64,000 nt of DNA, from the NCBI GenBank assembly GCA_024403795.1, contig JAKSRD010000002.1, forward strand, positions 1 to 64,000. The letters are read 5' to 3'. The notes beneath the pieces were generated by a model. It had not been told where the DNA came from, did no database searches, and worked only from the letters and a program-made list of their open reading frames with translations. Positions 7,741-12,733 of this stretch are shown here, in pieces. The DNA is from Saccharofermentans sp. GTDB lineage: Bacteria; Bacillota; Clostridia; Saccharofermentanales; Saccharofermentanaceae. Position 1 is the first letter of the stretch, and the number at the start of each line of letters is the position of its first letter. Both the position numbers and the translations under genes were made by a program.

Positions 7741-9201
7741 TCAGCTTCTTACGGACTTCTTTAAGATTCCTCTGTATGTGGTCGGTGTAAGGAATACGAT
7801 TATCGGCAGCAATTCGAGTCTTCCTGCAAGCATATCGAAAATCATTACCCACTTGGACAGATTCGAGAAGAACCCGTAGTTGCAGGTAGGTCCGACGAGT
7901 GACAGACCCGGTCCGATATTATTAAGCGTAGCTGCAACGGAAGTGAATACCGTAACAAGATCGTGGCCCTCTATCGCGACGATGAACATCGAGACAACGA
8001 ATATTACCAGGTAAATGAAGAAGTAGAGAGCAACCGAGTGTTCGACATCGGAACCTACGGCTTTGCCGTCAATGGTAATCGTCTTAACGGTTCTCGGATG
8101 AATGTAAGACTGGATCTCTCTCTTGATCGTCTTGAACATGATCTGGAATCTTGAGACCTTTATTCCGCCGCCCGTTGAACCGGCGCAGGCACCGACGAAC
8201 ATAAGAACAACAAGGATATACTTAGCGATTGTCGGCCAGAGGTCGAAGTCGGTCGTAGCGAATCCCGTTGTTGTTATGACTGTAGCTACCTGGAACAGTG
8301 AGTGTCTTAAGGATTCTTCAAGACCGCCGTAAATACTGTAGATCGAAGTGCAGATTATTCCGGTGGAAACGGCTACGATGATCCAATAACACTTAACCTC
8401 GCTGATCTTGAAGGCTTTGGACTTCTGCCTTGTTGTAAGGTAATAGTAGAAGTTGAAGTTAACTCCGAACAAAAGCATGAATACGGCTACTATCCACTGA
8501 TGGATGGGCGCATAAGAAGCAAAGCTGTCATTCTTGATGCCGAAGCCTCCCGTGCCGGCAGTTCCGAATCCCGTACAGATACTGTCAAAGATCGGCATTC
8601 CGGTTACGGCCAGTATGACCATCTCAAGGACGGTTATTACAAGGTAGATGTAGTAGAGCAGTTTTGCCGTTGTTCTGACCTTAGGTACGATCTTGCCGAC
8701 AGAAGGCCCGGGGCTCTCAGCCCTCATGAGATTCATGTTGGAGCCGCCCGCCATTGGGACAACTGCGAGTAGGAATACAAGTACTCCCATGCCGCCGATC
8801 CAGTGTGTTAATGAACGCCAGAGAATTGATGTATGTGATAAGCCTTCAACATTTGAAAGAATGCTCGCACCTGTCGTGGTAAAGCCTGAGACTGTCTCGA
8901 ACATTGCATCCGTAAAAGAGGGAATCTCTTTAGTAAGGATAAAAGGGAGACATCCGCAGATACTTAACTGGATCCATGAGAGCGCAGTGGCAACACAACC
9001 GTCCTTAATGAAGATGGTCATGTTCTTCGGCTTCTTAAGCGAGATCAGGAATCCGGCAACAATATAGAGTGCTGCCATCAAAACATATACCACGACCTGA
9101 CTCTCGGCATAGTAAAGTCCGCAGACAACGGGCAAAAGCATAAGAACGCCTTCTATAAGGAGGACTTTGCCCAGGATGTAGATAAGCATTTTCAGATTCA
9201 T
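7741..9201 (-). CDS. trkH: TrkH-type potassium uptake channel subunit
   Basis: A 486-residue polytopic membrane protein of the TrkH/KtrB family, the ion-conducting subunit of Trk potassium uptake. Selectivity-filter loops can be seen: VSGFTTTGAS, the GFGTAGTGGFG segment, the TTTGFATTDF loop and the last loop NNIGPGLSLVG. These four Gly-containing pore loops are the hallmark of the family. The start codon overlaps the trkA stop by 4 bases (ATGA), so translation is coupled to the regulatory subunit. Length is typical. Confidence 0.95.
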   Translation of the reverse strand: MNLKMLIYILGKVLLIEGVLMLLPVVCGLYYAESQVVVYVLMAALYIVAGFLISLKKPKNMTIFIKDGCVATALSWIQLSICGCLPFILTKEIPSFTDAMFETVSGFTTTGASILSNVEGLSHTSILWRSLTHWIGGMGVLVFLLAVVPMAGGSNMNLMRAESPGPSVGKIVPKVRTTAKLLYYIYLVITVLEMVILAVTGMPIFDSICTGFGTAGTGGFGIKNDSFASYAPIHQWIVAVFMLLFGVNFNFYYYLTTRQKSKAFKISEVKCYWIIVAVSTGIICTSIYSIYGGLEESLRHSLFQVATVITTTGFATTDFDLWPTIAKYILVVLMFVGACAGSTGGGIKVSRFQIMFKTIKREIQSYIHPRTVKTITIDGKAVGSDVEHSVALYFFIYLVIFVVSMFIVAIEGHDLVTVFTSVAATLNNIGPGLSLVGPTCNYGFFSNLSKWVMIFDMLAGRLELLPIIVFLTPTTYRGILKKSVRS

Positions 9202-10574
9202 CTTATTATGTCAGTTAAAGCTGTAAAGCCTTTGTTCTTAGTTACGATCATGACTCTGTCGCCGACCTCGATGGTGTCGTTACCTTTAGGAATGATTATC
9301 TTTCCCGAACGATTGATAAATGAGACGAGTGTATTCGGCTTGAGTTTCAGATCCTTGAGTTGTTTGCCTGTGACGGAAGACTGTTCCATTACTTTGAATT
9401 CGACAGCCTCTGCTTTCTCGTCGAAGAGATGGTACATGATTTCAACATTGCTTCCGATCGAAGCTTGCTTTGCACGGGCATATGAGATTATTGCCTCGGA
9501 GGTAATCAGCTTGGGATAGATAACGCTTCCGAGATCCAGACGGTTGATAACATCGGTAAAGCCGATCTTATTGATCTTGGTAACGGATTTTATGCCGCGT
9601 GAGATCTCTCTGGCGAACAAAGAGAGCATTATGTTCTCTTCGTCGATCCCCGTGAGTGCGACAACGGAATCGACTTCTCTGATTCCGGTCTCTTCAAGAA
9701 GAGCTTCGTTAATGCCGTCACCGTTGATTATCTCGGCGCGCGGGAGAAGCTCGCTTAATTCGGAACATCTGTCGGCATCCTTCTCGATAACGGTTACGTC
9801 GATTCCGGATTTGATAAGCTGATCGGCAAGATAGTATGCCGATTTACCGCCGCCGATGATGATGGTGCTCTTTACGGAATTGGTCTTGAAGCCGATGGAC
9901 TTAAGGAAGGAGTTGCATACTTTTCGAGTTGCCACGAAAGAGATGTTATCGCCTGACGAGAGCTCGAAAGAACCGTTAGGTATCGTAATCTCATCTCCTC
10001 GCTCAACACCTACGATGACAAGGTCATTCGTGTAATTGCTGCCAAGGTAAGCGACGGTCTTGCCGTCCAGCACATTGCCTTCAGGTATCTTTATCTTTAC
10101 CAGCTCTGCAGTTCCGTGAGCAAAAGTGTTGATCATGATGGCTGCAGGCAAATACAGGATACGGGCAGCTTCGATCGCAGCCTCGTACTCCGGGTTAATG
10201 ATCATCTCGAGACTGAGCTTGGAACGGAGATATGGAATCTCTTTGCCGTAGTCAGGATTTCTTACGCGTGCAATGGTAGAAAGCTCGTTGTTGAATTGCT
10301 TGGCAATGGTGCAGCACAGGAGATTGACTTCATCAGAGTCTGTTACGCAGATGAACAGGTCTGCTGAAGCTACATCAGCTTCTTCAAGTGCTTCGTGGCT
10401 GGCACCGTTGCCGATGACACCCATGCAGTCGTAAAGTGTGGCAAGTTCCGTCAGACGTTCTTCGTTCTTATCGATGATAACGATGTCATGTCCTTCTTCC
10501 GCAAGTCTCTCTACGAGTGTATAGCCGACTTTACCGGCACCTACTACGATTACTTTAAGTCCTTTTTTTGCCAT
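9198..10574 (-). CDS. trkA: TrkA potassium uptake regulatory protein
   Basis: A 458-residue cytoplasmic regulator of TrkH with the usual duplicated layout: a Rossmann RCK domain (VGAGKVGYTLVERL near residue 11), a TrkA-C domain, a second Rossmann domain (TIIIGGGKSAYYLA near residue 237) and a second TrkA-C domain. The first glycine-rich loop is canonical for NAD(H) binding; the second is less so. It starts 3 bases after the stop of the upstream G3E GTPase gene, without a clear ribosome site of its own, so it depends on that transcript and probably on coupled translation. Confidence 0.95.
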   Translation of the reverse strand: MAKKGLKVIVVGAGKVGYTLVERLAEEGHDIVIIDKNEERLTELATLYDCMGVIGNGASHEALEEADVASADLFICVTDSDEVNLLCCTIAKQFNNELSTIARVRNPDYGKEIPYLRSKLSLEMIINPEYEAAIEAARILYLPAAIMINTFAHGTAELVKIKIPEGNVLDGKTVAYLGSNYTNDLVIVGVERGDEITIPNGSFELSSGDNISFVATRKVCNSFLKSIGFKTNSVKSTIIIGGGKSAYYLADQLIKSGIDVTVIEKDADRCSELSELLPRAEIINGDGINEALLEETGIREVDSVVALTGIDEENIMLSLFAREISRGIKSVTKINKIGFTDVINRLDLGSVIYPKLITSEAIISYARAKQASIGSNVEIMYHLFDEKAEAVEFKVMEQSSVTGKQLKDLKLKPNTLVSFINRSGKIIIPKGNDTIEVGDRVMIVTKNKGFTALTDIIR

Positions 10575-10577
10575 AGA

Positions 10578-11678
10578 TCAGATTCCGAACAATTCCTTGA
10601 TAGCGTCTTTCTTAACTTCGGCACCGATAACAACGATCTTCCCGGTAACATCGGATGCGCCGGTTCTGACTTCGGATTCTTCAGGTACATAGTCGAAGTG
10701 GATCCATGTGCCGTCTTCTCCTGCAACGATTCCCTTGGAACGGAGGATCGTGCCGTACTTCTCGTTATCATCCAAAGCCTTGAGAGCTTCTTCGATCTGA
10801 GCTTTTGTGAAGCGCTTGGATGTCTCGAATCCGATGGAATCGAAAACTTCATCGGCATGATGATGGTGATGGTGGTGTTCATGATGATGCTCATCGTGGT
10901 CGTCATCATCGTCGTCATCGTGATGGTGGTGATGCTCATGCTCATCGTGGTCGTCATCATCGTCGTCGTCGTGATGGTGATGATGCTCATGCTCGTCGTG
11001 GTCGTCATCATCGTCGTCGTGATGGTGGTGATGATGCTCTGCTTCATGCTGCTCTCCTTCGAGAAGCGCTGCTGCCATGTCAGCTGCCGTAAGAGGCTCC
11101 TCGATGGCCTTAAGTATCTGTACACCTGAGAGGTCATCCCAAGGTGTTGTAATGATCTGTGAATGATCGTTGATCTCGCGGATGAGTGCGATAGCCTGAT
11201 CGAGCTTCTCCTGAGAGATGTTGCCCGTACGACTGAGAATGATGGTGCCGGCATACTTGATCTGATTCTCATAGAATTCCTTGAAGTTCTTGAGATAGAT
11301 CTTGCACTTGGAGGCATCGATAACCGTAACTGTTCCGCAGATCTCAGTGCCTTCAACGCGCTTAACGGCAGCTACTACATCTGAGAGCTTGCCTACGCCG
11401 GAAGGTTCGATGAGGATCCTCTCGGGTGAGAACTGATCGATAACGTCCTTGAGGGCTGAACCGAAGTCACCAACGAGGCTGCAGCAGATGCAGCCGGAAT
11501 TCATCTCGGTAATCTCAATGCCGGACTCCTTGAGGAAACCGCCGTCGATACCGATCTGGCCGAATTCGTTCTCGATAAGTACGAGCTTAATGCCGTTGTA
11601 ACCGTCAGCAATAAGCTTCTTGATAAGTGTTGTTTTGCCTGCTCCCAGAAATCCTGAGAAGATGTCAACTTTAGTCAT
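10578..11678 (-). CDS. G3E-family (CobW/YjiA-type) GTPase with a His/Asp-rich metal-binding loop
   Basis: A 366-residue putative metallochaperone. N-terminal Walker A GFLGAGKTT (residues 9-17), the conserved metal site CICC (63-66) and the G3E motif EPSG (91-94) are all present. Residues 211-274 are an extreme His/Asp/Glu loop made of three near-identical units of a His run, an Asp run and HDEHEH; such loops store or hand over zinc, nickel or cobalt. The usual NKxD base-specificity motif is replaced by SRTG (149-152), so nucleotide preference may differ. A short CobW C-terminal domain follows. It is the second gene of a four-gene operon (GTPase, GTPase, trkA, trkH). Zinc is the best guess for the metal because of the Zur-like site upstream. 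Confidence 0.88.
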   Translation of the reverse strand: MTKVDIFSGFLGAGKTTLIKKLIADGYNGIKLVLIENEFGQIGIDGGFLKESGIEITEMNSGCICCSLVGDFGSALKDVIDQFSPERILIEPSGVGKLSDVVAAVKRVEGTEICGTVTVIDASKCKIYLKNFKEFYENQIKYAGTIILSRTGNISQEKLDQAIALIREINDHSQIITTPWDDLSGVQILKAIEEPLTAADMAAALLEGEQHEAEHHHHHHDDDDDDHDEHEHHHHHDDDDDDDHDEHEHHHHHDDDDDDDHDEHHHEHHHHHHHADEVFDSIGFETSKRFTKAQIEEALKALDDNEKYGTILRSKGIVAGEDGTWIHFDYVPEESEVRTGASDVTGKIVVIGAEVKKDAIKELFGI

Positions 11679-11702: not shown

Positions 11703-12653
11703 TCAGTTGAAATAGATAACTTCGTTTTCGGGTTTGCTCGTTAATGCATAAGTCTCGACCTGAATGCTCGGAACGTTGATCTTTCCGCCTTCGCCGTCAT
11801 CATCTTCAAAATATCTGACGGTTCCCGTGGCCTTGATCCATTGACCGTTGGGGAAATTCGACTTGCATTCGTAGAAACAGAGCAATCCCATCGGCTGAAG
11901 GTCTGCCGCACAGCAGGTGTAAGCCTGTCTCTGAAGCACAAAAGCCTTACCGCGGAACTCTCGAAGGACTACGGCCTGACCGATGAGGCTTACGCGCTTT
12001 CCGTTATAACGGCCTTCGTTCTCGAAGGCGTCAGTGTAGAACAGACCGAAGTCTTCTGCTGCGATATTGCAGGGGTCCTGCTTGAGATCAAAGGGAAGAT
12101 GGTCCTCGATCTTTACGACTTTGTTGTTACTGTCGAAGAAATGAACGCTTGCACCCGGATTAACGGCCTTAACGGAGGCTCTGAGCTTGGGAATGTTATC
12201 GTTCTCTTCGTCAACACGATTGAACAGTACCGTATCGCAGTATCTGAAGTAGTCGGCGAACATGGTCTGCATGTTCTTGAGATACATGCCGTATGTCGAT
12301 GCGTCGACGGTTACGATCGCTGCAGCCAATGCCCAACGCTCCGGTACATCGACTTCATCAAAGAAGTCTGTGGGCTTTACGGAACCGTTCCACTCAATAA
12401 ATACGACACCGGGCTTGTACTTCTCTTCGATATCGAAAGTCATCTCTTTGGTGACTTCGTCAGTCTCACAATTAATGATTACAGGGTTAGCACCCTCATA
12501 ATTCTCCTGAACGTATTCCTTTTCACCTTCTTCGGTGTTGATGACTACGACCTTGCGATTTTTGAAATTCTCGCTGCCGAGCCAGTCACAGATGACCGAA
12601 GTCTTTCCGCTGTCCAGAAATCCGGTGAAAAAGTAAACCAGACAATCTTCCAT
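11703..12653 (-). CDS. G3E-like GTPase fused to a YcgQ (TIGR03943)-like C-terminal domain
   Basis: A 316-residue protein with two parts. Residues 1 to about 190 follow the G3E GTPase fold: Walker A GFLDSGKTS (11-19), an EWNG in place of the usual ExSG (87-90) and NRVD (145-148) in place of NKxD. The CxCC metal motif of the family is missing; only one Cys (62) lies in that place. Residues 205-316 contain YTCCAADLQPMGL and QWIKATGTV, which resemble the C-terminal domain of the YcgQ/DUF1980 family encoded next to zinc-starvation permeases in Bacillus. The two Cys of CCAAD (247-248) could hold a metal. First gene of the operon, with an AGAGGTG ribosome site. Domain assignment of the C-terminus is by pattern only. 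Confidence 0.75.
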   Translation of the reverse strand: MEDCLVYFFTGFLDSGKTSVICDWLGSENFKNRKVVVINTEEGEKEYVQENYEGANPVIINCETDEVTKEMTFDIEEKYKPGVVFIEWNGSVKPTDFFDEVDVPERWALAAAIVTVDASTYGMYLKNMQTMFADYFRYCDTVLFNRVDEENDNIPKLRASVKAVNPGASVHFFDSNNKVVKIEDHLPFDLKQDPCNIAAEDFGLFYTDAFENEGRYNGKRVSLIGQAVVLREFRGKAFVLQRQAYTCCAADLQPMGLLCFYECKSNFPNGQWIKATGTVRYFEDDDGEGGKINVPSIQVETYALTSKPENEVIYFN

Positions 12654-12672: not shown

Positions 12673-12706
12673 AGATACTATTTTGTCTCGTAATTGTTAT
12701 TATTTC
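12673..12706 (-). promoter_or_regulatory. Promoter of the metal GTPase / trk operon with a Zur-box-like site
   Basis: Read on the minus strand, TTGAAA and CAAAAT are 17 bases apart in front of the 12653 start codon. The spacer contains TAATAAC-A-ATTACGA (12688-12702). The right half matches the Bacillus Zur box half-site ATTACGA exactly and the left half matches at 4 of 7 positions. A repressor bound between -35 and -10 would block transcription when zinc is plentiful. The call is inference from sequence and from the metal-related genes downstream. Confidence 0.5.
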
Positions 12707-12733
12707 AAGCAAAGAAAAGATATAAAATCTATT

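Follow-up and report, generated by a model that had tools for sequence, protein, structure and literature searches.

The question raised by this locus is what a G3E GTPase that lacks the CxCC motif might do when it is joined, in a single polypeptide, to the C-terminal domain of YcgQ. The gene lies at 11703..12653 on the minus strand of the window, by which we mean the whole 64,000-nucleotide stretch that was analysed, and encodes 316 amino acids. Its open reading frame is exactly as the original prediction described it, with a Walker A motif, no CxCC, and both YTCCAADLQPMGL and WIKATGTV. That prediction took the fusion to merge both parts of a zinc-starvation system, with the metal site of the GTPase moved to a CCAAD motif, and as a whole this interpretation is partly supported by the analysis that follows.

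The N-terminal half is a G3E GTPase domain (residues 1-175; 12129..12653, minus strand), matched by the Pfam cobW model (PF02492) over residues 6-171 with an E-value of 6.7e-14 (52.3 bits against a cut-off of 20.7). Within the Walker A motif GFLDSGKT (residues 11-18; 12600..12623, minus strand), G11, G16, K17 and T18 are invariant across 24 aligned fusions, as are E87, N89 and G90 of EWNG, a Walker-B-like ExNG motif at residues 87-90 (12384..12395, minus strand). CxCC is absent from the window protein and from all 24 of these aligned fusions, and Pfam finds no CobW_C domain (PF07683) in the protein. The C-terminal half (residues 185-314; 11712..12101, minus strand) is the DUF1980_C domain of YcgQ (PF21537, E 8.9e-19, 68 bits against a cut-off of 25.9), which bears out the YcgQ-like character that had been predicted for it. 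The TIGR03943 profile matches the complete protein (E 5.3e-20, model positions 97-219 of 221) and keeps its match when the C-terminal part is taken in isolation (E 5.2e-19). At 71.8 bits the fusion falls below the whole-protein equivalog cut-off of that model (88.8 bits) because the membrane part of YcgQ is missing: the N-terminal membrane segment found in canonical YcgQ (PF09323) gives no match in the fusion at E-values up to 10. A related fusion (L100) clears the same cut-off with 90.3 bits.

A search for the same architecture in relatives found matches in 107 of the 115 genomes of the family, and since about 104 of these 107 carry the fusion at full length it is neither a chance product nor an assembly artefact; the fusion of GTPase and DUF1980_C is confirmed as real. 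The other family matches consist of a fragment, of the G domain belonging to the partner described below, or of canonical YcgQ. Across the order the whole-length fusion occurs only in the window's family. A search of the class at an E-value of 1e-30 gave matches in 89 of 391 genomes, most of them with full-length fusions and about ten with fusions to a permease, which places the fusion clade in about a fifth of the class genomes sampled. Carriers in the GTDB collection include Butyrivibrio, Frisingicoccus caecimuris, Eubacterium xylanophilum, Holdemania filiformis and Saccharofermentans MAGs, and the nearest relatives that carry the fusion are bins from the rumen under the names Ruminococcaceae or Saccharofermentans, which makes a Saccharofermentans-like bacterium of rumen or gut the most likely source of the window. 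In a tree of G domains all DUF1980_C fusions fall into a single clade (SH-aLRT 97), which groups with the permease-fused GTPases, apart from the CxCC proteins, on a branch whose value of 94 is only indicative, the tree being a quick run and the branch not starred. Stand-alone GTPases of 214 residues at two loci (L109 and L110) were considered as an ancestral unfused form, which the tree did not confirm: their very long branch falls outside the fusion clade.

Searching the sequences of solved structures with the fusion as query gave nothing useful, the best G3E match being YjiA at an E-value of 0.73, and matches to Juno in the same search were put down to chance. An AF2 model of the fusion was obtained (pLDDT 88.3, pTM 0.69), with HypB (Z 14.2, rmsd 3.0 over 158 residues) and UreG (Z 13.6) among the closest solved structures to its G domain, YjiA at Z 12.2 (rmsd 3.4 over 172 residues) and the Ffh-FtsY pair at Z about 12. 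The C-terminal domain adopts an OB fold both in this model and when modelled separately (pLDDT 93.7), and resembles Ten1 (Z 11.1), the N-terminal domain of MCM, and SSB. When the C-terminal domains of 20 fusions were aligned with 21 DUF1980_C domains from outside fusions, R242, C248, D251 and W272 proved invariant in all 41, and residue 247 was cysteine in 37 and histidine in four. The exchange of cysteine for histidine is the pattern expected of a metal ligand, making CCAAD (residues 247-251; 11901..11915, minus strand) a candidate metal site. Every domain aligned has [C/H]CxxD, which typifies YcgQ C-terminal domains in general, and CCAAD is for that reason not a metal site relocated in the fusion.

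The CxCC motif is found instead in the adjoining gene. Separated from the fusion by a 24 bp gap and lying downstream of it, at 10578..11678 on the minus strand, is a CobW/COG0523 GTPase, also present beside the fusion in relatives, which carries GCICC (CICC at 11481..11492, minus strand), a CobW_C domain (PF07683, E 2.5e-08) and a His/Asp-rich linker of about 60 residues with imperfect repeats (10851-11039, minus strand). In its base-recognition motif, SRTG is found where NKxD is expected. Among 97 fusions with a CxCC partner inside the examined stretch, 96 have it on their own strand at a distance of no more than 150 bp, and the unique pairs comprise 60 with the fusion first and 61 with the CxCC gene first. 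Some repeats and genomes that are close relatives of one another contribute to these counts, which so do not represent independent events. That both gene orders occur indicates that adjacency has been maintained through rearrangement. One fusion (L101:4662-5597) has no adjoining CxCC partner, and the same genome holds a second, paired copy (L100). In the window the GTPase pair is followed, 3 bp behind the CxCC gene, by trkA and trkH (7741-10574, minus strand), an order kept at three other loci (L052, L054 and L055) and not at L050 or in the sister genus. As the CxCC GTPase is still a separate neighbour, and as the permease and the membrane part of YcgQ are absent, the view that the fusion merges both parts of the system does not hold.

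Elsewhere in the Clostridia, the CxCC-less GTPase is found fused to a different partner. In families f167, f188, f189 and f191 an N-terminal GTPase of this kind is joined to a C-terminal ArsP_1 permease in a protein of 524-537 residues. A gene for a canonical membrane YcgQ comes next, and a CxCC CobW lies alongside. The CxCC CobW adjoins the module at four of the five loci (L142-L146) and is divergent at L144; a FUR-family gene is divergent at L143, and L142 has a similar open reading frame in the equivalent place. These natural permease fusions with YcgQ downstream would merit a study of their own. No ArsP_1 permease lies beside the window gene and none was found elsewhere in its own genome, which is 64% complete. 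The link to the permease fails for the window copy because most genomes of the family are without one: it is present in 13 of 113, leaving about 90% that lack it.

A connection to zinc is seen in gene neighbourhoods. Every named metal gene found next to a DUF1980_C gene serves zinc uptake or encodes a regulator of the FUR family. A Pfam-checked locus (L109) reads ZnuA, permease, YcgQ, CxCC CobW and a CxCC-less GTPase of 214 residues, and others read permease, YcgQ and ZnuA (L092) or permease, YcgQ and FUR (L076). An ABC-3 gene stands beside the module at L144, ZnuA and ABC-3 genes at L116 are closely followed, on their downstream side, by a DUF1980_C match, and a znuABC cluster with ZnuA and ABC-3 (L114) itself contains a DUF1980_C protein. 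This last protein (L114:5239-5952), which begins like a lipoprotein, and another (L113:5088-5546) carry DUF1980_C with neither GTPase nor permease.

The same connection extends to regulation in a paralogous pair found in about ten sister genomes within the window's family, in which the product of the CxCC gene is ZigA-like (E 7.5e-91, under the model cut-off). Boxes resembling TGAnAAnnATTnTCA stand in nine of nine unique regions upstream of pairs of this type that have the CxCC gene first, and in the genomes searched a strict form, TGAnAATnATTnTCA, is also found upstream of a fur-znuC-znuB operon and of a ZinT-ZnuA gene. Judged from these sequences, the regulator that recognises the boxes is very likely Zur, and since they are shared with the zur-znuCB operon and the ZinT-ZnuA gene the paralogous copy is probably under Zur control. 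At L190:3244-4851 and L194:2713-4260 a box of the Zur type lies upstream of a gene for a ZinT-ZnuA fusion protein, and further Zur-type boxes at L189, L191 and L195 (genomes G065 and G064) lie near genes of no assigned role.

The window copy differs. Upstream of the fusion is a promoter-like TTGAAA-17-CAAAAT (12680..12708, minus strand), conserved across the genus and accompanied by neither a Zur-type box nor a dyad; a palindrome scan and inspection by eye of the 250 bp upstream found no Zur-type box and no 7-1-7 palindrome. The promoter spacer holds a solitary CAATTACGA that looks like one half of a Zur box from Bacillus; it was discarded as a candidate, most near relatives having CAATTCAGG or similar in its place. 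A strict box occurs once in the window's own genome (C12:88391), within a coding frame, and was taken as chance. Among 121 pairs of the same type as that of the window none has a TGA-type box, and other palindromes occur upstream of 13 of the 121. Given this box-free promoter, the window copy is probably the housekeeping, or constitutive, version. The predicted link to zinc therefore stands for the families, through their ZnuA, ZnuABC and FUR neighbours, the boxed paralogous pair and the binding of Zur next to an ArsP_1 permease gene in B. anthracis (PMC6336718), and falls for the window copy, for which control by zinc starvation finds no support in its promoter or in those of its counterparts.

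We propose, with a probability of roughly one half, that metal is handled here by a module of two GTPases, in which the fusion, with its OB-fold YcgQ domain, is the second and CxCC-less one beside the partner CobW. The partner, with its CxCC and His/Asp-rich linker, would carry a transition metal, for which zinc is the likeliest candidate; the fusion would bind GTP and pair with it in the manner of SIMIBI-class GTPases, and the OB domain, through its [C/H]CxxD site, would take over the metal or hand it on. GTP hydrolysis and metal transfer are putative activities of the fusion. In other Clostridia, where the CxCC-less GTPase rides on an ArsP-type permease and the OB domain on a membrane-bound YcgQ, the same arrangement may couple the permease to a cytosolic chaperone; the window lineage would have retained the soluble part alone, its copy probably serving housekeeping. 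Against the module stand the box-free promoter of the window copy, the lack of an ArsP_1 permease in most genomes of the family, the capacity of OB folds to bind nucleic acids, the trkA/trkH adjacency in part of the genus, the L101 fusion with no CxCC neighbour, the unstarred branch (94) that unites fusions and permease fusions, and the L109 and L110 proteins that fall outside the fusion group. More tentatively, and by analogy with the signal recognition particle and its receptor, the metal-loaded CxCC GTPase and the permease- or OB-bearing one might form a docking relay for zinc between transporter and cytosolic clients in Clostridia, with the window gene as a soluble version of the receptor-like GTPase; we hold this to be possible, though unlikely.

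The metal need not be zinc. HypB, UreG and CobW are G3E GTPases with roles in nickel and cobalt metabolism, and the likeness of the G domain to the first two, together with a weak match of the permease half at L143 to an NCBIfam copper/zinc efflux model (E 2e-12, far under the cut-off), would fit a two-GTPase module for another metal such as nickel, cobalt or iron, or one for metal tolerance rather than supply. We consider this unlikely, as the named metal genes beside DUF1980_C genes point to zinc uptake or FUR-family regulation. Zinc neighbourhoods and the boxes of the paralogous pair also speak for the original proposal of a Zur-repressed zinc-starvation protein whose GTPase metal site was exchanged for CCAAD, yet this is quite improbable for a gene whose type of pair and promoter are free of boxes, whose CCAAD is common to YcgQ, and whose neighbour still has the CxCC.

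OB folds also bind nucleic acids, and the matches to Ten1, MCM and SSB raise the idea of a regulatory GTPase that binds RNA or DNA and has no metal role, comparable in kind to the recruiter of a ribosome hibernation factor among the COG0523 GTPases. The NCBIfam model for that type of GTPase does give a weak match to the CxCC partner in the paralogous pair (E 6e-26, under the cut-off). The invariant cysteine, aspartate, arginine and tryptophan and the cysteine/histidine exchange form a metal-site pattern, however, and the domain also occurs in the lipoprotein-like protein of the znuABC cluster, hence outside the cytosol, so that a nucleic-acid role seems very unlikely. The two-GTPase metal module remains our preferred reading.

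The two alternative fusions connect YcgQ, the permease and the CxCC-less GTPase both with zinc genes and with a metallochaperone that has CxCC, giving these orphan proteins a testable role. They also suggest that G3E metal systems can include members without CxCC, so that annotation based on the motif misses partners. The fusion architecture is probably visible in domain databases, both domains being listed there; what appears to be undescribed in searchable papers is that the GTPases are paired, that the permease forms an alternative fusion and that the copies divide into those with a Zur box and those without. We found no paper on the function of DUF1980 or TIGR03943 in the open-licence literature, and the 2009 paper on COG0523 by Haas mentions neither YcgQ, COG3689 nor the fusions. 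Zur repression of ycgQ and a CobW gene in Bacillus, on which the prediction had drawn, is only partly borne out. In B. anthracis, where zinc depletion raises yciC, Zur binds between this gene and one for an ArsP_1 permease, but positive Zur control of the permease operon was inferred from the position of the box (PMC6336718), and ycgRQ of B. subtilis is reported to be under ECF sigma factors (PMC5584981). The orphan pair YcgR-YcgQ (ScfAB, SMU.746-747) is reported to contribute to acid tolerance in Streptococcus mutans and to infection fitness in group A Streptococcus (PMC5584981).

The fusion has features in common with several known systems. With YcgQ (TIGR03943, DUF1980; ScfB, SMU.747), a putative permease subunit together with YcgR, it has in common the DUF1980_C domain, the [C/H]CxxD site, the invariant arginine and tryptophan and a similar C-terminal tail, but it has no membrane N terminus, scores below the family cut-off, is fused to a GTPase and usually occurs in genomes without an ArsP_1 permease. 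It shares the G3E fold and Walker A with COG0523/CobW proteins such as YjiA, ZigA and YciC/ZagA and lacks their CxCC and CobW_C, both of which its adjacent partner possesses. HypB and UreG, its closest structural counterparts, belong to a class that delivers metal in a GTP-dependent manner, although identity to the fusion does not exceed 18%, no hydrogenase or urease link is known and the OB domain is an addition. The CobW-ArsP_1 fusions, whose GTPase groups with that of the window and likewise lies near a CxCC CobW, bear a permease in place of the YcgQ C-terminal domain, YcgQ being a separate membrane protein there. Finally, Ffh and FtsY, the signal recognition particle GTPase and its receptor, are engaged in protein targeting and handle no metal, and are offered as an analogy only; they share the SIMIBI fold and provide a precedent for a heterodimer of two related GTPases, as may be formed by the fusion and its CxCC neighbour.
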